From IMG/VR virus record IMGVR_UViG_3300046820_003380, positions 1 through 37,443 of that record: DNA of 37,443 bases; one strand, given 5' to 3'. The first letter of the stretch is position 1. The number at the start of each line of letters is the position of its first letter. Shown one piece after another: positions 7,643 through 30,117 of this stretch. The notes below the pieces were generated by a model. The model was not told the DNA's origin. It ran no database searches and saw only the letters and a program-made list of their open reading frames with translations. Position numbers and translations under genes: made by a program. Source of the stretch: a virus.

Positions 7643-10600
7643 TCATATGGTAAAATAATTTCCCGTAGACCAACAAGAATAATAAATATTAGTTCCTGTA
7701 CCAAATTTAGTTCTTACTTGAACATTAAATGCTGTCGCCGCAGGAATTGGTGTACTTACAGTATTACTTATAGTGTAAGTAGATACAACACCTAAAGATA
7801 TTATTGTACCATAATCAGTATCTGTATTTTTTTTGTATCTTATCTCATATCCTGTGGCGTTTGTAACTAAAGTCCAACTTATAAAAATACTAGCATTTGT
7901 TGCAAAACCTCCTTGAGGATTAAGAATTGGATTTTGAGTCAATGTTATTGTAAAGTTTCTAGGTGCGGTTGTTAGAGTGGCAAATGAAGCATTTGAGGTT
8001 GAGCTTCTTCCACAATTATCGTATTCTCCGCCAAAAATATTTTCTAATTTTAAAGTCACATTGTTTAATGATGTGCTGGCTAATCCCTGAATAATACTAT
8101 CAATTATACTTGTAGATAGACCACAGTTTCTTAAATCAATTAATGTCAACTGTGTTCCTGCAAAATTCAAGCTAAAATTTCCACCAAAATTATTACCATT
8201 TAATTCTAATGTACCTAATGATGGGAATACACTTAAATTATTTGTAGATAAAATCTGAGTAGTATTTGTGAATAAACAATTTGTTACTTTTAAACTTACC
8301 AATGAGGTACATGAACCTAAATTACTGATTGAACTTAAAGAACCATTATTTGATAAATCGAGTGAAGTGATTGTTGTATATGATTTACCTGGAGCATTTA
8401 AATTTATTGATGAAATCGTATTTGCCCTGTGAGTCGCTGTCGTTTCGTTTTTTAAATTAATTGTTCTAATTTGTCCGTTTAATGTGGGGGTAAATGATGT
8501 GATTCCACAATTTTGAGCGGTTAGAGTAACTATTGATTTTGTTGATAAATTATAATTGAAATCTCCAAAATTATTTCTGTTTGGGGTACCGGCCAATAAT
8601 ACTCCATCTGTTGCATCGCTGGTCAATCCTATTTGTAAAGTTATACAACTATTAGGTATTGTAGGTAAAGTTGTTAGTAAGTTACCATTTAATTTAAGTG
8701 TTTCCACACTATTTGTAATTGTTACACCCACAAATGAAGTATCGGTCAATCTATTTCTATCAAGATTTAAAGTTATTAAAGATGATGGAGAACTTAATGA
8801 TACTGGTATAGTTTCTAATATATTTTTACTTAAATCTATTGAAGTTAGATTGTTCAAATTAGTCAAATTTGATGAAAACTCAGTCAATCTATTAAAAGTT
8901 AAATTTAACAGGTTAATTCCTGATGGTAGAGATAGGTTAAAGATACCTGTTAAATTATTACTATCCATTAATAAATTAAATCCAACATAGCTTATTGATG
9001 ACAATCCGTTAATTGTTGGTATTGTACTAAGTCCAATATTACTTTGAGCGGTTCCGTTATTTGATATTTCAATTTCTCTAATTTGAGTTGGAACTGTAAT
9101 ATTTACTGAACTCCATGTGTTATTTTTGTCCATGTCATAAATTCTAAAAGTTCTTAATGATGACATTGACGCCATGTTTAGAACAAATCCCGATACTTTT
9201 CCATATCTTAAAACAACATTTTGTATTGTTGTATTACTTGTGATATTATTTAAGAAATTAGTAGAATTAAAAGAGTATATTAGTTCGCAATTTTGCAAAT
9301 TTAAAGTTGCAATATCATTTGGTAGTGTGGCAGTTGAAAATCCTGAAGGTCCTGTTAAATAATAATAATATATAAACAACGACCCTATTCTTGGAAACTG
9401 AGTTAAAGTTTGTGGGGTACTAATAAATCCACTGATAAATCTAAAAATCAAATTAGCTGAAATAGAATATGACGAGTCAAGTCCTTGCCAATCATATAAA
9501 AATGCTGAAATTCCTGTCTCAGCATATGTATGAGAAACTAACCAATTTACAGAAGAAGGAATACTACTAAAATTAGTATTGTTTGTAGGATTACCATTTA
9601 CATCAAATGAATCGTTCCATTGAGCAGTAAATGAAAGAGTAGGGGATGCAGATTTTTGTCCGCTAATTTCCATAGTTGTGTCTGCAACACTTAGAACTCT
9701 AATTCCTTGTGGAACAGTTGGTGAATTTGGGACACAAGCACTTACCGATGTGATTATACATCCAACTCTCTGACAGATATAAACACCATCAGTAGGATTA
9801 AGGTCCACATTTGTTAGTATAGTGTAAGTAATCCAAAATGGTACTGTTGGTAATCCGGTAATATTACATCCACATGAGGTACTACCAGGTGCGTAAATAG
9901 TACCGCAATTTCCACCAGGACATAATGGGTTCCAATTATGGATATCAATTCTAATATTATCAACTGTCCATGAAGGAAAATCTGTCCAGTTGGCAAATGT
10001 TGGTCCCAAATATCTCTGACATGCATTATCAACACTTGTAAAATTATAAGGAGCTCCTTGAGCATTTATTAATCTTGAAGAAATTTGGACATTTAAAGTC
10101 ATATTTGTTGTAGGCCTTACACAAGGAGGTTCAGTTACAGTACATGTTATAGGGAATGTTGCACCAACTGAATCTGTAACGATTAATGTATATGAGCCGG
10201 CAGCTAAATTAATTAAAGGGAGCGTTATTGGGTTTCCATTATAAGTTATAGTATATGGTGGCTCACCTCCCGTAATTATTAGATTAACACTACCATTTTT
10301 ACCTCCAAAAGTTGTAACATTTGTTGAGTTACAAGTTGCATTAAGCGACTGTACAAATGTACATGTATAAATGTCAGTAATAATACAATTAAGTATTGTT
10401 ACAACCGCAAACTGTATATTTGTTTGTCCTGGCGACCAAACATACGATGTAGGGTTATTTAAATTAACAACATAAAAACCATCAGGAAGTTTTACCTTAT
10501 TACAATCACAAGTTGTCGTATCGGGATATAATCTACCTCCTATTACAAATTCACCTGGAGCATAATTTGTGGGGGTATAAGTTAATTGACAAGATGAACA

Positions 10601-13483
10601 AATATTTGGGTTATTTAAATAACCATCTATAGTCGGCACCAAGTCGCATATCTCAATTGATGTTGAGTAGATTCCATTCTTTAACCAATTAACATTAGTT
10701 GCAGGTGCATTATTATTAATATATCCTTGTGTTAATATTACTTGTAAAGCCGAACCTCCAGGAGGTGTACAAACAATGAAACTATTTTTAATACAACTTG
10801 GAACTTGTGAAGCCCCTGCCATTGAATCGGGTGGAACAGACTGTAAAGTAAGACCAAATGGTGAATTTAAATCAACCGTATATTGCCATGGAGAAGTTGA
10901 ACTACCTCCAGCAATGTATAGTTCTCCATTATGTTCATACATTGCATATCCATAAAATCCCGCAGATAAAATCGTTGGGGTGATGTCGACTTCTAATTCA
11001 GGATTACCGTCAGGATAACTATATTGAACAATGTATTGTTTTCTATTAGGACTAACAGATGTTTCTTTATTATCCACTAAGGCTATCAATTTAGAATCCG
11101 TAGTTAGAATCATGTCACCACTTACTCGGCAGTCCTCAAGAAGAACTTGGTTGTGAAGTCCAATTGGGAATAATGGATTTAGAACCTCAGTTGAAGTATT
11201 GTATTCATAAAACCATATGTCTGTATCACCTGGTTCTATTTGTGATGTTGTTAATATTACAGTAGTGTCGTCAACAACCGCTAAGCCAGCGCCTAAAGAA
11301 TTAGTAAATGGTAATGTGTGACTTGTAACAAAAGTTGATGTAAAATTTGGGGAAAGGGTTATATCCCACTCTAACAATGTTGGAGGTGTACCAGATTTTG
11401 ACATATACATTTTGGTTTCAGTATGAGCAATGTCAGTACTTGAAGCCGTGTCTGTGATATTATTTAGTTGAGTTGCGGTATTAGAATCAGGGTCATATAG
11501 ATACACATTCGCAGCAACATTATATAATACAGAACATCCTGATGCATCTGGATTTTGCGGACCTGGTGGGGTGGGTGTAACAGTTGGTGTTGGTGTCTGT
11601 GTTGGGGTCTCAGTTGGCGTTGGGGTATTTGTCGGTGTCTCAGTAGGGGTTTGACTTGGTGATGAGGATGGTTCGGGCGCCGGTTCTTGACAACCTGTTA
11701 ACACATAAATTTCACAATTATTACCAACTAATAATAAACCAATTTGCAAGTATGTTAAACTCGTGTTAACAGGTTGAGATGGGTCAAGAGCATTATATAA
11801 ATATATACCCCAAGGAACTGAACAATTACATGACCCACCTGGTAAACTAATAATTGAATATGGTGACCCAATTGATGCAAAACCTTGACTTGCAACAATT
11901 TGAAATTGATTTATGGTTGCACCTCCAGGATTTGTCTGAACAAGGTCTCTCCATATCGCGCACAAAGTTCCATAATTTGACCCCCCCTGATTTGTTTGTA
12001 CAAAAACAGTACTATTGTAAGTAAACCCACTAGATATCCAAAAAGTGGGGGAGGATGGTGCAACGCAATTTGGGGTTAAAGAAGGAGTAGGACTCAAGGA
12101 AGGGGTTGGAGATGCCGACCCAACTGGAGGTGAAGGTGTTAAAGATGGGGTTGGTGTTAATGAGGCAGTCGCTGATGGTGATAGTCCTGGTGATGGAGTA
12201 ACTGTAGGAGTTATTGTAGGTGTTGCAGATTGTGATTGATTTGGGGTACTTGTCACTGTAGGAGTCACACTACGAGATGGAGTGGTAGTCGGGGATACAG
12301 AAATACTTGGTGTATTTGTTGGAGTAACGGTTGGTGTAGGACTTTGACTTTTAGATACCGTGATTGAAGGGGTGACTGACTTTGTTGGAGTTCGACTAAC
12401 TGGTGGTCCTGATGGACAAGCAATTCCATTTCCACATGTTCCATAATCTATAATATCCGCCCTAGCATCATCAGGGCTTGGCTGAGTTCCACACACATAT
12501 ACAACAGGCTCACTTCCATCATTTGATGTTATTGGTAACTGTCTCTCAACCCCATTACATTCATACCACCTAATAAATGTTGAAGCAGGAAAACCTCCTC
12601 CAGTGGTGTAAAATACCCCCCAACAATTACAAAGAGTTGGTAATTTTGGACTTTTAGTTACAGTAGGGGTAGGAGTAGTAGTTACAGATGATGTTGGTGT
12701 ACTTGTTGGTGCCCTACTTAAAGAAACGCTAGGTCTAGGTGATTTAGTTGGTGATGGTGTTTTAGTTGTTGTAGGATTTGGCGTATTAGATTTGGTAACA
12801 GTTGGGGTCACTGTAGGAGTTTTTGTATTAGTCGGAGTATTGGTTGGAGTTTTTGGAGGGGTTCTAGTTGGGGTTGCTGTGATTGTTTCACTAGGTGTAA
12901 CACTACTTGACGGTGTTTGAGTTTTAGTTGGTGATGGTGTTTTAGTTACGCTAGGCGTTACTGAATTGGATGGTGTAACACTTGGAGATACCGAAATACT
13001 AGGTGTAACAGTTGGTGTTACGGATTTACTTGGTGTAATACTTGGAGATATCGAAATACTAGGTGTAACAGTTGGTGTTACGGATTTTGAAGGCTGTGGG
13101 GGTGGGGGTGATTTAGTTACCGATGGTGTGTTTGTTGGAGTTTTTGATGGTGTGTTTGTTGGAGTTGCTGACTTACTTGGTGTGTTTGTTGGAGTAATTG
13201 ATGGAGTTATTGAAATTGATGGTGTGTTTGTTGGAGTAATTGATGGAGTTATCGAAATTGAAGGGGTAACTGTTGGTGTAACACTATTTGTTGGGGTAAC
13301 TGTTGGTGTAACACTATTTGTTGGGGTTACGGAAGGTGAGAGAACTGGGTCAGGCCCCTCAATTGGTGGAACTACCTTATCAATTTCTTTTTGATTAATA
13401 ACGGATTTAACACCCATATTATCAACAACTAATTTTGAACCGTCAAATCTTCTACCCGTTTTCGGTCTTCTATTTAAACCCAT
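7643..13483 (-). CDS. Giant modular surface protein with Thr/Pro/Ser repeats, SprB-like repeat, LRRs and FN3-like end
   Basis: 1946 residues, not assignable to one family. Order: a short basic N-terminus; a long T-P-S-V repeat tract (about 46-280); a small Cys-rich domain (281-362); a second T/P/S tract (363-473); a second Cys-containing domain (474-600); a third tract (601-641); a probable beta-propeller (about 645-880); Cys-rich modules; a SprB-like repeat (about 1054-1119, GSVNLIITGGEPPYTITYNG, then AAGSYTLIVTDSVGA); leucine-rich repeats (about 1450-1770, for example LTSIDLSKNILETIP); and a fibronectin III-like end (1838-1946). There is no signal peptide. It is translationally linked to the terminase by a TAATG overlap. 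Lying among virion genes, it is probably a long fibre or head/tail decoration that binds host surface sugars or adhesins; that role is inferred. SprB-type repeats point to a flavobacterial host. Confidence 0.8.
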   Translation of the reverse strand: MGLNRRPKTGRRFDGSKLVVDNMGVKSVINQKEIDKVVPPIEGPDPVLSPSVTPTNSVTPTVTPTNSVTPTVTPSISITPSITPTNTPSISITPSITPTNTPSKSATPTNTPSKTPTNTPSVTKSPPPPQPSKSVTPTVTPSISISPSITPSKSVTPTVTPSISVSPSVTPSNSVTPSVTKTPSPTKTQTPSSSVTPSETITATPTRTPPKTPTNTPTNTKTPTVTPTVTKSNTPNPTTTKTPSPTKSPRPSVSLSRAPTSTPTSSVTTTPTPTVTKSPKLPTLCNCWGVFYTTGGGFPASTFIRWYECNGVERQLPITSNDGSEPVVYVCGTQPSPDDARADIIDYGTCGNGIACPSGPPVSRTPTKSVTPSITVSKSQSPTPTVTPTNTPSISVSPTTTPSRSVTPTVTSTPNQSQSATPTITPTVTPSPGLSPSATASLTPTPSLTPSPPVGSASPTPSLSPTPSLTPNCVAPSSPTFWISSGFTYNSTVFVQTNQGGSNYGTLCAIWRDLVQTNPGGATINQFQIVASQGFASIGSPYSIISLPGGSCNCSVPWGIYLYNALDPSQPVNTSLTYLQIGLLLVGNNCEIYVLTGCQEPAPEPSSSPSQTPTETPTNTPTPTETPTQTPTPTVTPTPPGPQNPDASGCSVLYNVAANVYLYDPDSNTATQLNNITDTASSTDIAHTETKMYMSKSGTPPTLLEWDITLSPNFTSTFVTSHTLPFTNSLGAGLAVVDDTTVILTTSQIEPGDTDIWFYEYNTSTEVLNPLFPIGLHNQVLLEDCRVSGDMILTTDSKLIALVDNKETSVSPNRKQYIVQYSYPDGNPELEVDITPTILSAGFYGYAMYEHNGELYIAGGSSTSPWQYTVDLNSPFGLTLQSVPPDSMAGASQVPSCIKNSFIVCTPPGGSALQVILTQGYINNNAPATNVNWLKNGIYSTSIEICDLVPTIDGYLNNPNICSSCQLTYTPTNYAPGEFVIGGRLYPDTTTCDCNKVKLPDGFYVVNLNNPTSYVWSPGQTNIQFAVVTILNCIITDIYTCTFVQSLNATCNSTNVTTFGGKNGSVNLIITGGEPPYTITYNGNPITLPLINLAAGSYTLIVTDSVGATFPITCTVTEPPCVRPTTNMTLNVQISSRLINAQGAPYNFTSVDNACQRYLGPTFANWTDFPSWTVDNIRIDIHNWNPLCPGGNCGTIYAPGSTSCGCNITGLPTVPFWITYTILTNVDLNPTDGVYICQRVGCIITSVSACVPNSPTVPQGIRVLSVADTTMEISGQKSASPTLSFTAQWNDSFDVNGNPTNNTNFSSIPSSVNWLVSHTYAETGISAFLYDWQGLDSSYSISANLIFRFISGFISTPQTLTQFPRIGSLFIYYYYLTGPSGFSTATLPNDIATLNLQNCELIYSFNSTNFLNNITSNTTIQNVVLRYGKVSGFVLNMASMSSLRTFRIYDMDKNNTWSSVNITVPTQIREIEISNNGTAQSNIGLSTIPTINGLSSISYVGFNLLMDSNNLTGIFNLSLPSGINLLNLTFNRLTEFSSNLTNLNNLTSIDLSKNILETIPVSLSSPSSLITLNLDRNRLTDTSFVGVTITNSVETLKLNGNLLTTLPTIPNSCITLQIGLTSDATDGVLLAGTPNRNNFGDFNYNLSTKSIVTLTAQNCGITSFTPTLNGQIRTINLKNETTATHRANTISSINLNAPGKSYTTITSLDLSNNGSLSSISNLGSCTSLVSLKVTNCLFTNTTQILSTNNLSVFPSLGTLELNGNNFGGNFSLNFAGTQLTLIDLRNCGLSTSIIDSIIQGLASTSLNNVTLKLENIFGGEYDNCGRSSTSNASFATLTTAPRNFTITLTQNPILNPQGGFATNASIFISWTLVTNATGYEIRYKKNTDTDYGTIISLGVVSTYTISNTVSTPIPAATAFNVQVRTKFGTGTNIYYSCWSTGNYFTI
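12970..13089. repeat. 60-bp tandem repeat, two copies, in the giant gene
   Basis: Copies 12970-13029 and 13030-13089 differ at only a few bases and encode two nearly identical Ser/Thr/Pro/Val units. They lie inside the T/P/S tract of the giant protein. Confidence 0.85.
13179..13322. repeat. 42-bp and 30-bp tandem duplications in the giant gene
   Basis: A 42-bp unit occurs at 13179-13220 and 13221-13262, and a 30-bp unit at 13263-13292 and 13293-13322. Each pair is almost identical at DNA level. All unit lengths are multiples of three, so copy-number change would keep the reading frame. Confidence 0.85.
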
Positions 13484-20396: not shown

Positions 20397-22445
20397 ATGA
20401 CAGATTCAGCGGACGAAGGAAAAAAACCAAGACCACAAAAAGGAAGCGATAGTGCTACTCCGGTATTGGATAATTTCTCAAGAGATTTAATACAACTGGC
20501 AGAGGAGAATAAATTGGACCCAGTTGTCGGAAGAGAGCAAGAAATTGTAAGAATTGCCCAAATTCTATCAAGAAGAAAGAAAAATAACCCAATTATTATT
20601 GGTGAACCAGGTTGCGGAAAGACTGCAATAGTAGAAGGTCTTGCAATGAAGATATTACAAGGGGATTGCCCAAGGAATTTGCTCGATAAGAGAATTTTAT
20701 CACTCGATTTAAACTCAATTGTTGCTGGAACAAAATACAGAGGTCAATTTGAAGAAAGATTGAAGGTTATTATCGAAGAAATCCAAGTAAATCCAAATGT
20801 AATCTTGTTTATTGATGAAATTCACACTTTGGTTGGAGCGGGAAATGCTTCGGGGTCACTAGATGCATCAAATATCCTAAAACCAGCTCTTTCAAGAGGT
20901 GAAATTCAATGTATTGGAGCAACAACCCTTGATGAATTCAAAAAGAACATCGAAAAAGACGGAGCACTTGACAGAAGATTCCAAAAAGTGATTGTATCAC
21001 CCTCAACAAAGGAAGAAACATTTGAAATCCTCCAAAATGTTAAGGAAAAGTACGAGGCGCACCATAAAGTTAATTACACAGATGAAATTTTGCAGATTTG
21101 TGTGGAACTTGCCGATAGATACATCACAGACAGAGAGTTTCCTGACAAAGCTTTTGACATTATGGATGAAGTCGGAGCAAGAAGTCAAGTTGATGTAAAA
21201 AATCCTGAGGTAATTGAGGAACTAAAGAAAGAGTCTCAAAAAATTCGAGAAGAAAAACTCCAAGTTGTTAAAAGACAGAATTATGAGATGGCCGCCCAAC
21301 TCAGGGACAGAGAAAAAAAGATTCTATCCCAACTTGAGTCAGAAAAACAGAAATTTGAGACTGACCTTCAAACAAAGAGAAAGGATATTTCTCCTGAGCT
21401 CGTTTATGAGGTTGTATCAATTATGACAAAAATCCCTGTAACCAAACTTTCAATTGATGATACTCAGAATCTATTGAATTTGGAGGAAACTTTGTCAAAA
21501 TCGGTTATTGGTCAAGCTGAGGCAATTAATATTATTGCAAAATCTATCAGAAGAAATCGTCTTGGAATCAAGGACCCAAACAAACCAATTGGTTCATTCA
21601 TATTCCTTGGTTCAACAGGTGTTGGTAAGACATTACTTGCAAAGGAACTTGCAAAACAAATCTTCGGAAGTGAAGAAAACCTTATCAGAGTGGATATGAG
21701 CGAGTTTCAAGAGAAACACACCGCATCAAGACTCATTGGCTCCCCTCCTGGTTATGTTGGATATGAGGAAGGTGGTCAATTAACAGAACAAGTCAAGACA
21801 AAACCATATTCAGTAGTACTTTTCGATGAGGTCGAAAAGGCTCATAAGGATATTTTCTCATCACTACTTCAACTTTTGGATGAAGGTTATATGACGGACA
21901 GCTTTGGAAGAAAGGTTAATTTCAAAAACTGCCTAATCATTATGACCTCAAACATCGGGGTGAAGAAAATGCAAGATTTTGGCGCTGGAATTGGATTTGG
22001 AAAATCAAGCAATGTTTATGCTGACCAAGAATTGAAGAAACAAATGTTGAATAAGGAATTGAAAAACTATTTCGCTCCTGAGTTCATCAATCGACTCGAT
22101 GAAATAATTGTCTTCAATACCTTGAAGGATGAAGATGTTAAAAAAATCGTTTTGGTTGAGGTTGCAAAACTTCAGAAGAGACTTGGAAAACTTGGATATA
22201 CAATCAGTCTTGACGATTCAGTTATTGATTACATTACAAAAGTTGGATTTGACGAGGTATACGGGGCAAGACCGCTCAAAAGAGCAATTCAAGAAAAAAT
22301 TGAGGATTTTGTATCTGATGAAGTACTCAGAGGTAATATAAAATCAGGAAAAAATTACACAATCAAAATAGAGGAAGAGAAGGTTATTTTGGAAGAAGAA
22401 GTAACCGAAAAGAAAACAAAGGGGAGAAAGAAAAAAGGGGAGTAA
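20397..22445 (+). CDS. clpC-like: ClpC-like AAA+ unfoldase lacking the N-domain
   Basis: Hexameric two-ring ATPase that unfolds proteins and can feed them to ClpP. 682 residues, against about 840 in bacterial ClpC. The first 25 residues are a disordered basic tail in place of the Clp-N domain. D1 has Walker A GEPGCGKT (69-76) and Walker B ILFIDE (136-141). The middle region contains a UVR-like helix (NYEMAAQLRDREKKI, about 291-305), which marks ClpC rather than ClpB. D2 has Walker A GSTGVGKT (from about 404) and VVLFDEVEKAH. The loop AGIGFGKSS contains IGF at 532-534, the ClpP-docking tripeptide. The gene ends in a Lys-rich tail and a terminator. Phage-encoded adaptor-independent delivery to host ClpP is inferred. 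It lies upstream of the metallopeptidase and tmRNA genes. Confidence 0.93.
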   Translation: MTDSADEGKKPRPQKGSDSATPVLDNFSRDLIQLAEENKLDPVVGREQEIVRIAQILSRRKKNNPIIIGEPGCGKTAIVEGLAMKILQGDCPRNLLDKRILSLDLNSIVAGTKYRGQFEERLKVIIEEIQVNPNVILFIDEIHTLVGAGNASGSLDASNILKPALSRGEIQCIGATTLDEFKKNIEKDGALDRRFQKVIVSPSTKEETFEILQNVKEKYEAHHKVNYTDEILQICVELADRYITDREFPDKAFDIMDEVGARSQVDVKNPEVIEELKKESQKIREEKLQVVKRQNYEMAAQLRDREKKILSQLESEKQKFETDLQTKRKDISPELVYEVVSIMTKIPVTKLSIDDTQNLLNLEETLSKSVIGQAEAINIIAKSIRRNRLGIKDPNKPIGSFIFLGSTGVGKTLLAKELAKQIFGSEENLIRVDMSEFQEKHTASRLIGSPPGYVGYEEGGQLTEQVKTKPYSVVLFDEVEKAHKDIFSSLLQLLDEGYMTDSFGRKVNFKNCLIIMTSNIGVKKMQDFGAGIGFGKSSNVYADQELKKQMLNKELKNYFAPEFINRLDEIIVFNTLKDEDVKKIVLVEVAKLQKRLGKLGYTISLDDSVIDYITKVGFDEVYGARPLKRAIQEKIEDFVSDEVLRGNIKSGKNYTIKIEEEKVILEEEVTEKKTKGRKKKGE

Positions 22446-24391: not shown

Positions 24392-24422
24392 TTGGATTAT
24401 TAATAAACTATTTATATCTTTG
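24392..24422 (+). promoter_or_regulatory. Consensus Bacteroidetes promoter for the tmRNA
   Basis: TTG at 24392-24394, exactly 20 bp, then TATCTTTG at 24415-24422, a perfect match to the TTG-N20-TAnnTTTG form. It predicts a start about 15 nt before the mature tmRNA 5' end, leaving a short leader for RNase P to remove. Confidence 0.8.
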
Positions 24423-24538
24423 TAGCACGTTATTTGAAATATGGGGGTGTTCTTTGGAATTGATTGGCATAACTTGTTAATCGGGGCACGCAGTGAGATG
24501 TTTCCTATCACTTTAATCTATGGTCACAAAAGTTAAAT

Positions 24539-24604
24539 GGCAATACAATTGCAAAACTTCAGACACTCGGTTTCATCCGCACTGAAGAAGTATCAGTAGC
24601 CTAA
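24539..24604 (+). CDS. tmRNA-encoded proteolysis tag
   Basis: Reading frame inside the tmRNA. From GGC at 24539 the tag is 21 residues, starting GNTIAKLQTL and ending TEEVSVA before TAA at 24602-24604. Bacteroidetes tags, as recalled, begin with Gly (GENNYALAA type), which supports GGC as the resume codon. The alternative is GCA at 24551, giving 17 residues. The tag is about twice the usual length and ends VSVA instead of ALAA. The stop codon lies in a helix 5-like hairpin (GTAGCC with GGCCTAC). The exact resume codon is not certain. Confidence 0.65.
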   Translation, partial: GNTIAKLQTLGFIRTEEVSVA

Positions 24605-24810
24605 TCTAGGATTGGCCTACAAAACGGGTCGGTAAGCATATAACCTTGGAACAGAAGCTCGTACTGTGGTGTGGTTTCTACCCGAAAAGAAACAAACCCT
24701 TGTTTGTCCGTTACGGAAGGGTAATCTAAACGGAATATTTTGGAATGGTGAGAACCATCATTAACCTAAGCGTGTAGTCCTTATTAATCCGTATGAGCAA
24801 GACCTGGGTT

Positions 24811-25034
24811 TAATTTCGGACCCATACTGCAGGAATGTAGTATTAAAAATTGGAAGAATTCAGTGAACTCTTAACAGGTAATGCTGATGACAACACTGAG
24901 CCGAGCCTCGTAGGAAGAGGAAGGTGCAGAGACTAGTGGGGGTTAGACGCTTCTAACGTAATACCACATAAGAATCCGACACCCAAAAAGGGTGATGATA
25001 TAGTCCACATTTCAAGGAAACTTGAGAAGACTGG
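24811..25034 (+). ncRNA. Group I self-splicing intron in the tmRNA T-loop
   Basis: 224 nt with no protein-coding frame of note. P1: exon TGGGTT (24805-24810) pairs with GACCCA (24819-24824), ending in the U-G wobble that marks a group I 5' splice site. P10: TCG (24816-24818) with 3' exon CGA (25035-25037). P2: TACTGCA-GGAA-TGTAGTA (24825-24842). P6: CCTC/GAGG (24906-24920). R-like segment TGCAGAGACTA (24925-24935) and S-like segment GATATAGTCC (24997-25006) form P7 (GACTA with TAGTC). P8: GTTAG/CTAAC (24942-24957). P9: TTCAAG-GAAA-CTTGAG (25011-25026). The last base is G (25034), as required. P3, P4 and P5 were not fully traced and no subgroup is claimed. Confidence 0.9.
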
Positions 25035-25060
25035 CGACTCCCAGCACCTCCACCAAAAAG

Positions 25061-25095
25061 TTAAAGTGGTCGAATTAGGCCACTTTAATTTTTTT
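25061..25095 (+). terminator. Terminator after the tmRNA
   Basis: TTAAAGTGG (25061-25069), 10-nt loop, CCACTTTAA (25080-25088), then seven T. It begins 5 nt after the tmRNA CCA and overlaps the last codons of the convergent gene ending at 25075, which it may also terminate. Confidence 0.85.
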
Positions 25096-25485
25096 AACTG
25101 ATTTTATTTTAACCCCTTTTCCTTTCTTTTTTAAAGTTACTTCTTGTTCGTTGGGGTAAAGAATATTATTATGTATTGTTTGGAAAAAGTCAATTTGCGA
25201 TTTATCGGCAATTACTGTAACCAAGAAAGTATCATCTCCGATTCCTGTAACATAACTATGTGATGAAAGTAAGTCTTTTTTATTTGGGCTATAATGAGAA
25301 CCCAGTTCTTCCAAATCAATATCTTCTTTTGAATCTGCCTTTAAAATTCTATATAGTGTAATTTTTTCAGGTAAAGATTCAATGTAATCCATTAAATTTT
25401 TTAATTCTGAATCAATGTCCTCACCCGAAAAATCCATCATTTCAAGGGTGTCCTTCAGGTCTGATATTTGTTTCTTTGAAAACAT
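25075..25485 (-). CDS. Possible ADP-ribosyltransferase-fold protein
   Basis: 136 residues. The C-terminal two thirds follow the pattern of short phage R-S-E class ADP-ribosyltransferases: LYRILKA with R46, then LGSHYSPNKKDLL (about 61-73), a strand FLVTVIADKSQIDFFQTI, and YPNEQEVTLKKKGKGVKI with an E-Q-E triad at 113-115. This resembles the R...S...ExE layout of the Alt/VIP2 type, where the ExE residues bind and activate the target and NAD ribose. The target cannot be told; T4 Alt modifies host RNA polymerase. The N-terminal 40 residues are helical. It overlaps the upstream M23 gene by one base (TAATG). An alternative is a non-catalytic relative. Confidence 0.5.
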   Translation of the reverse strand: MFSKKQISDLKDTLEMMDFSGEDIDSELKNLMDYIESLPEKITLYRILKADSKEDIDLEELGSHYSPNKKDLLSSHSYVTGIGDDTFLVTVIADKSQIDFFQTIHNNILYPNEQEVTLKKKGKGVKIKSVKKIKVA

Positions 25486-28645: not shown

Positions 28646-28647
28646 AG

Positions 28648-28721
28648 TGCATCTTGTAGGATTCGAACCTACGACCTTCTCGTTATGAGCGAGCTTCTCT
28701 AACCGTCTGAGATAAAGATGC
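28648..28721 (-). tRNA. tRNA-Met (anticodon CAU)
   Basis: On the minus strand: acceptor GCATCTT with AAGATGC (seven pairs), D-arm TCTC...GAGA, anticodon loop CTCATAA (anticodon CAT), T-arm GTAGG-TTCGAAT-CCTAC, discriminator A, no encoded CCA. The outer anticodon-stem pair is mismatched (G-A). A paired first acceptor base (G-C) argues against an initiator tRNA; an Ile tRNA with modified CAU cannot be excluded. The 5' 39 nt are also the last codons of the HNH gene. Confidence 0.93.
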
Positions 28722-29276
28722 TTGTTTAATCCATTTCCTTACCGCATTATCCGATACTCCATATTCTCTACCAACTGCACTGTATCCTTGTTCTTTCACT
28801 TTTTCAATAATAACATCTATATCCGGTCTGTCAACTTTTCTAAGGTTTTTTTGGTTACAAGATTGACATCTCTTACCCCACTTACTTATTTCACAACCAC
28901 AATCAATACAGTTATTTATTTTTGGTTTTACAAAGTTAATCCATCTTTCACTTTGTTCCAAATTAAATTCAGATATTTTTTTTCTAACTTTATCCAATTC
29001 TAAGTCAGGAAAGTGAGTTTCTCTATGACAATTTGCGCATAAAACTTGGCATTTCTCAAACTCAGTCATTATAAATTCCATACTAGAATTTGAAAGTTTC
29101 CTTTGGTCTAATTGAGCCTCTTTACTATCCCTCTCTATGTGGTGAAATTCTAAAACCGCTAAATTTTTATCATACCCACAAATTTCACATTTACCACCTC
29201 TCAAATTTATCAAATGCATTTTTCTTTTTAATGCTCTGATAATTTGATACTCATAAGTATTTCTTTGTTTTTTCAT
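28683..29276 (-). CDS. HNH endonuclease with zinc ribbon and HTH, 3' end inside a tRNA
   Basis: 197 residues. HNH core: CEICGYDKNLAVLEFHHIER (about 30-49) and CQVLCANCHRETHF, with four Cys for structural zinc and the His pair of the active site. A second zinc ribbon follows (CIDCGCEISKWGKRCQSC, about 118-135), then a helix-turn-helix (AVGREYGVSDNAVRKWI, about 168-184). The layout suits a free-standing homing or nicking endonuclease. The last 12 codons and the stop lie within tRNA-Met, so the protein's C-terminus reads the tRNA sequence. This suggests insertion just beside the tRNA. The motif TATTTATAGT is at 29300-29291. Confidence 0.88.
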   Translation of the reverse strand: MKKQRNTYEYQIIRALKRKMHLINLRGGKCEICGYDKNLAVLEFHHIERDSKEAQLDQRKLSNSSMEFIMTEFEKCQVLCANCHRETHFPDLELDKVRKKISEFNLEQSERWINFVKPKINNCIDCGCEISKWGKRCQSCNQKNLRKVDRPDIDVIIEKVKEQGYSAVGREYGVSDNAVRKWIKQASLSQTVREARS

Positions 29277-29628: not shown

Positions 29629-30117
29629 ATGAACGTAGGAGTTTTAGTTTTAAATTCAGATTATTCACCCATTAATGTTACAAGCTTTAAAAGGGGTTTT
29701 AACCTTGTTTTTAAGGGTAAAGCCGAAGTTGTGCAATCAACAGGTGAACCAATAACAACTTATCTTGGTGAGTTTCTAAGACCCATTATTATTCGATTAC
29801 TTGATTATATTCATTACAGACCCAAAAAAATAAGTGTCTCTAAGAATAGAATTATTAAAAGGGATAAGTTCAGATGTGTATATTGTGGAAGTCAGAAACA
29901 TCTAACCATTGACCACGTTATTCCAAAATCAAAAGGAGGACAAAATACTTGGTCCAATATGGTAACGTGTTGTTCAAAATGTAATTGTAAAAAAGGGGAT
30001 AGGTCCCCTGAAGAAGCCGGACTAAAGTCCGTTTACCCAAAGGAGCCCACCATGTTTCAAGATGTTATCAGTAGTGAGCTCCTTCAGGCTTGGGAATTAT
30101 TTAAATCGGGATTTTAA
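29629..30117 (+). CDS. HNH endonuclease
   Basis: 162 residues. The N-terminal 70 residues (VLVLNSDYSPINVTSFKRGF, then VFKGKAEVV) are typical of a widespread short HNH family in Bacteroidetes and phages. HNH core: RCVYCGSQKHLTIDHVIPKS with KGGQNTWSNMVTCCSKCN, with two CxxC pairs for zinc and DH as catalytic motif. Roles in the family include homing and helping terminase cleavage; neither can be assigned here. A strong host-type promoter lies 6 nt before the ATG, so the mRNA is probably leaderless and early. It is convergent with the gene ending at 30114 (4-bp overlap). Confidence 0.9.
   Translation: MNVGVLVLNSDYSPINVTSFKRGFNLVFKGKAEVVQSTGEPITTYLGEFLRPIIIRLLDYIHYRPKKISVSKNRIIKRDKFRCVYCGSQKHLTIDHVIPKSKGGQNTWSNMVTCCSKCNCKKGDRSPEEAGLKSVYPKEPTMFQDVISSELLQAWELFKSGF

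Follow-up and report, generated by a model that had tools for sequence, protein, structure and literature searches.

A 37,443-base virus record of IMG/VR, analysed over its whole length and referred to here as the window, very probably carries a phage tmRNA gene that is split within its T-loop by a group I intron; the spliced RNA of 389 nt would rescue ribosomes and add a phage tag. Exon 1 ends at 24810 with GACCTGGGTT (last letters CTGGGTT) and exon 2 begins at 25035 with CGACTCCCAGCACCTCCACCA, so that the insertion lies after UU of the T-loop (TT^CGACT). Joining the exons gives the T-arm CTGGG-TTCGACT-CCCAG, a 7-bp acceptor with a G3.U70 pair, and CCA; the acceptor strands, GGGGGTG and CACCTCC followed by A and CCA, are tRNA-Ala-like ends as in tmRNA. 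An initial annotation of this DNA had proposed that joining 24810 to 25035 restores the T-arm, that the intron comprises 224 nt without an ORF, and that the mature RNA measures 389 nt; the sequence at the junction and the exon coordinates (368 + 21 nt) agree on all three points (Table 1).

Table 1. Position of the predicted tmRNA gene, its intron and the associated elements in the window.
Feature	Position	Strand	Remarks
ClpC/ClpA-like AAA+ unfoldase	20397..22445	+	682 aa, two-domain; Pfam, NCBIfam and PHROG matches
Bacteroidota-type promoter	24392..24422	+	Predicted from sequence; TTG at 24392-24394, 20-nt spacer, TATCTTTG at 24415-24422
tmRNA exon 1	24443..24810	+	368 nt; 5' acceptor strand GGGGGUG (G3.U70 pair), D-arm, tag-encoding frame, pseudoknot region, T-arm 5' half
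Tag reading frame	24539..24604	+	GNTIAKLQTLGFIRTEEVSVA then stop; resume codon GGC at 24539; 21 aa
Group I intron	24811..25034	+	224 nt, no ORF, 3' terminal G
P1	24805-24810/24819-24824	+	U.G at 5' splice site (24810.24819); U.G in 16 of 17 homologues, U-A in one
P10	24816-24818/exon 2 25035-25037	+	98% of cells paired
P3	24850-24854/24975-24979	+	100% of cells paired; compensatory change in one pair
P7 (guanosine-binding helix)	24931-24935/25001-25005	+	Invariant in 17 homologues
P7.1	24936-24939/24964-24967	+	Inside P7
P7.2	24942-24947/24952-24957	+	Inside P7; compensatory change in 5 of 6 pairs
P8	24980-24984/24990-24994	+	Compensatory change in 2 of 5 pairs
P9 with GAAA loop	25011-25016/25021-25026	+	Compensatory change in 6 of 6 pairs
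tmRNA exon 2	25035..25055	+	21 nt; T-arm 3' half, acceptor 3' strand, discriminator A, encoded CCA
Terminator-like hairpin	25061..25096	+	Likewise predicted; TTAAAGTGG-10 nt-CCACTTTAA, then T run

Relatives were sought among viral contigs by a pattern in which the intron 3' end is joined to CGANTCCC and the acceptor strand. At least 25 other viral contigs have the same split layout; the relatives come from metagenomes, and several of their contigs are short; the intron-bearing ones include records of 281, 150, 126 and 69 kb. The matches of a first viral scan were mostly chance or ordinary tRNAs and were discarded. In every intron-bearing contig found, the intron ends in a G that stands before CGA. 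Across the exons the T-stem covaries (CTGGG/CCCAG, GAGGG/CCCTC, GTGGG/CCCAC, CGGGG/CCCCG and GCGGG/CCCGC), as does the acceptor, where GGGGGTG, GGGGGCG and GGGGATG each occur with a matching partner. Because T-stem and acceptor covary across 224 bases, comparison shows two exons that behave as a single predicted RNA. One of the relatives also carries a GOLLD RNA (L091:2509-2918; 330 bits) about 1 kb from its intron-bearing tmRNA, on the same contig.

The Rfam model Intron_gpI matches 24801-25027 with 67.7 bits (E 2.9e-15). A structure built by hand on 17 homologues comprises P1, P2, P3, P4, P6, P6a, P7, P7.1, P7.2, P8, P9 and P10, and the P3, P4, P6, P7 and P8 core of group I introns, with its conserved P7, is present in the window intron. 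Over the 17 homologues 96.0% of cells are standard pairs and 27 of the 60 pairs in the structure show compensatory changes; compensatory cells number 128, compared to 38.9 in shuffles and 11-31 in slid-partner controls. The Rfam match, this covariation and the family model presented below together sustain the earlier proposal of a group I intron with the predicted fold. The elements named at that time (P1 with its U-G, P10, P7, P8, P9 and the terminal G) are all found in the window, their pairs being covered in the 17 homologues. The P7.1 and P7.2 stems suggest what we take to be membership of subgroup IA.

A separate search, for T-arms that are intact and carry the exon-1 motif, yielded at least 120 stretches. 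Among the matches listed, most of the readable ones are tmRNA genes of the same kind without the intron, and some are other sequences. One intron-less gene (L277) aligns with an intron-bearing gene (L135) at 98% identity except for a gap at GGGTT^CGAG that measures exactly 224 nt; this empty-site allele thus lacks precisely the predicted intron at the predicted T-loop junction. On a tree of 108 exon sequences, again among the matches listed, 9 changes are required to explain the distribution of the intron, well-supported branches forcing at least 8 of them. With at least eight to nine changes, this ORF-less element has, judged by these alleles, been acquired or lost repeatedly.

A covariance model (R1) was built from the 17 homologous introns, window included; the window intron, being part of the model, scores 260 bits. 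The same intron is present in the ssrA gene of 2 of 395 Bacteroidia genomes (135.9 bits in Hymenobacter and 146.2 bits in the second), where the spliced forms are tmRNAs according to ARAGORN and the tags are GNNQFALAA and GDYSYAMAA. The next three R1 matches in these 395 genomes are introns that interrupt tRNA anticodon arms. A further member of the family, 231 nt long, lies in the T-loop of a phage tRNA-Ala(TGC) (L005:9088-9393; R1 152.7 bits); it is inserted one base earlier (T^TCGAAT), and once spliced the gene is recognised as tRNA-Ala by ARAGORN. Among 76 loci probed from the intron-less scan only L231 scores with R1 (41.4 bits), and this is another intron at another site: a different group I core (L231:600-1050, minus strand) that follows an HNH-like coding stretch and precedes an apparent tRNA 3' part. 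The tmRNA of that phage is itself intron-less. A strict pattern scan of the 84,980-species genome contigs gave no match. A looser scan of genome contigs gave eight, of which only that in Hymenobacter reads as a tmRNA T-loop intron; the others look like intact or chance T-arms, the Slackia match lying just downstream of normal tRNA sequence. Cultured phages searched by blastn matched only through other introns, and no tmRNA homologous to either of two intron-less tmRNA probes turned up in cultured phage records.

With a portal, a prohead protease and a large terminase of T4 type encoded in it, the window is the record of a T4-like phage, as expected of the phage origin first proposed for the tmRNA gene; a T4-type portal gene is also found in 7 of the 25 intron-bearing relatives. 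The predicted hosts are Bacteroidota-type bacteria. The tmRNA gene seems to form a short transcription unit by itself, with a Bacteroidota-type promoter and a terminator of its own. Across the phage tmRNAs, 56 of 73 distinct upstream regions have TANNTTTG within 60 nt of the gene, compared to 5.3% of random segments from the same loci; the hairpin downstream of exon 2 is not listed by the terminator scan, which allows loops of at most 8. Elsewhere in the window there are two HNH ORFs, one for an endonuclease (28683-29276, minus strand) that ends within a tRNA-Met gene (28647-28721) and another at 29629-30117; a 1946-aa protein encoded at 7643-13483 (minus strand) is rich in T/P/S repeats at its N-terminal end and has weak PHROG matches only.

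The reading frame of the tag was followed through 88 phage tmRNAs, from which 53 distinct tag sequences were aligned. Phage tags are 21 aa long, or 22 aa in a few relatives, with G1, G11 and A21 invariant and L12 and V20 nearly so. Among tag pairs at least 70% alike, pN is 0.113 against a pS of 0.353, and the other two frames contain stops in 53 of 53 and 51 of 53 distinct sequences. By this comparison the predicted phage tag is under purifying selection. The window tag ends in VSVA, and nearly all phage tags end in VA; the usual Clp-type degron end A[LM]AA is absent from the window tag, an absence that concerns the usual tag and not the identity of the RNA as tmRNA. Tags of Bacteroidia hosts, 8-10 aa in length, mostly end in [YF]A[LM]AA (27 of 28 ARAGORN calls). 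A different long tag type (...ENFLDEATFVSNGELAVA) is found in L199, L224, L273, L280 and others, with no ClpC-like gene in the records searched, and an intron-bearing tmRNA at L036:1-561 has, by eye, an apparent reading frame of more than 30 codons that ends in ELV and a stop and is unlike the common tag.

The gene for the ClpC-like protein of the window lies 2 kb upstream of the tmRNA gene. The protein has a UVR-like segment and an IGF loop, its 682 aa give no match to the Clp N-domain, and [IV]GF is present in every ClpC-like relative with a readable loop. In all 65 measurable loci the ClpC-like gene precedes the tmRNA on the same strand, at a distance of about 2-6.5 kb; one record of 380 kb (L185), where the two are far apart, is an exception to this linkage. 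Such a gene is carried by 78 of the 80 records with the window's tag type, the two others being a 5.5-kb fragment and a record with a divergent ATVGHF tag. It is found in 17 of the 25 intron-bearing records, the remaining 8 being short or having other tags, and in 4 of the 29 remaining records; these 4 proved, when inspected, to share the window's tag type. The linkage of clpC and tag may reflect common descent. In five phage copies of clpC (L144, L151, G069, G075 and G107) the translated alignment contains one or two in-frame stops. The cultured Flavobacterium phage immuto (its last 366 bases lying outside the clpC check) and Rhodothermus phage RM378 gave neither a clpC nor an Rfam tmRNA match. 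Among 30 large related records ClpP is encoded in 8 and SmpB was found in 1; given the single SmpB, use of the host protein is assumed.

Taken together, these features suggest the following course of events. In the unspliced RNA the T-arm would be unable to form. The folded intron would pair the exon end GGGUU in P1, with U.G at the cut; guanosine would attack the 5' splice site, P10 would hold CGA, and ligation would produce CUGGG-UUCGACU-CCCAG. The resulting 389-nt RNA would be charged with alanine by virtue of G3.U70 and, together with SmpB, presumably that of the host, would free stalled ribosomes and add the 21-aa tag. As to the fate of tagged products, our preferred reading, offered tentatively, is that the neighbouring phage ClpC-like unfoldase, together with ClpP, recognises the phage tag as a degron. 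With the same reserve, one may picture a tagging and degradation channel of the phage's own, in which host ClpX would not read the tag, the linked unfoldase acting on host or phage ClpP would, and intron-bearing copies would need splicing first.

Of the two Rfam models named as a check in the initial annotation, Intron_gpI finds its match at 67.7 bits and the tmRNA model RF00023 gives none in the unspliced tmRNA region of the window. ARAGORN does not call the window copy a tmRNA, spliced or unspliced, nor for any nearby splice choice, and MFE folding of the spliced window RNA is uninformative (z -0.60). The identity of the gene as tmRNA is upheld through its relatives: L094 (67.7 bits) and L091 (55 bits) pass the RF00023 cut-off, and ARAGORN calls tmRNA in seven relatives spliced in silico (L094, L099, L122, L125, L129, L130 and L134). 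The nearest of these, L099, is 97% identical to the window copy and lacks one T that the latter has near 24452, either a natural change or a read error; this T may be why ARAGORN accepts spliced L099 and rejects the spliced window copy. The window copy could on these grounds be taken for a decaying tmRNA, inactive or weak, whose tRNA-like fold is upset by the additional T in the 5' portion of exon 1. However, ARAGORN also rejects spliced relatives that lack the extra T (L132, L133 and L137, for example), so its rejection of the window copy means little, and that copy is intact in its tag frame, acceptor and T-arm as well as in its promoter and intron core; we regard decay as unlikely. That the gene is not the phage's at all, the contig being misassembled or a host-derived piece, might be argued from the occurrence of the same intron in the ssrA of two cellular Bacteroidia genomes, but is scarcely credible given the portal, protease and terminase of T4 type in the window, the portal in the intron-bearing relatives, and a phage tag unlike the host tag.

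Two alternatives accept the gene as the phage's and assign it another role. The RNA could be a decoy that blocks host tmRNA and tags no protein, much as phage DS6A reportedly inhibits endogenous tmRNA with a short RNA that resembles tmRNA (PMC11915505). Selection on the tag frame, with G1, G11, L12 and A21 conserved, argues against a decoy, as does the full-length pseudoknot region that is retained, and we consider this role very improbable. Alternatively, the intron could be a switch, splicing being set by infection state or guanosine level so as to time ribosome rescue by the phage. The T-arm is broken until splicing has occurred, and maturation must therefore come after it, as a switch would have it; yet intron-less alleles are common, one of them being the near-identical partner of an intron-bearing gene, and recurrent gain and loss is better accommodated by a tolerated mobile element. 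A regulatory intron is accordingly improbable.

The conserved tag and the ClpC-like neighbour go beyond the initial annotation; side by side, they predict that some phages replace the degradation tag of the host with one of their own. Since near-identical alleles with and without the intron exist in nature, the cost or use of the intron is open to experiment. With these genes, phages enter the story of intron-split tmRNA genes.

T-loop introns of tmRNA genes were already known, as the initial annotation had stated: PMC11915505 describes them in 883 ssrA sequences at four subsites, with position 3 in class Bacteroidia. The known intron-form genes, as described there, resemble the window in having a T-loop group I intron with -1U and a terminal G; such introns are short, and most of them lack an endonuclease gene. 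The site in the window, after the second loop U, and the shared intron family match Bacteroidia 'position 3' as we read the numbering of PMC11915505, and the phage introns look like new members of this kind. They differ from the known forms in being carried by phages, in having many related intron-less phage alleles, and in the unusual tag of the gene that hosts them; the main text of PMC11915505 counts 79 bacteriophage tmRNAs and is silent on introns in them. The tmRNA of Bacteroidia hosts is, like that of the phages, a one-piece RNA of about 390 nt with a G resume codon and a Bacteroidota-type promoter, but the host tag has 8-10 aa and the phage tag 21-22 aa. Huge phages carry tmRNA, SmpB and Clp genes, with no intron mentioned (PMC7162821); like the family of the window phage, they encode part of the machinery for ribosome rescue. 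That the window's tag type might also occur in huge-phage records with a ClpC-like gene was not supported by the single tmRNA read, that of the 484-kb record LR756508, which has a ClpC-like gene and a tmRNA reading frame unrelated to the window tag. The group I introns of T4- and Staphylococcus-type phages share with the window intron a group I core with P7.1/P7.2, and several are matched by blastn; these introns reside mainly in protein genes, whereas that of the window resides in ssrA.
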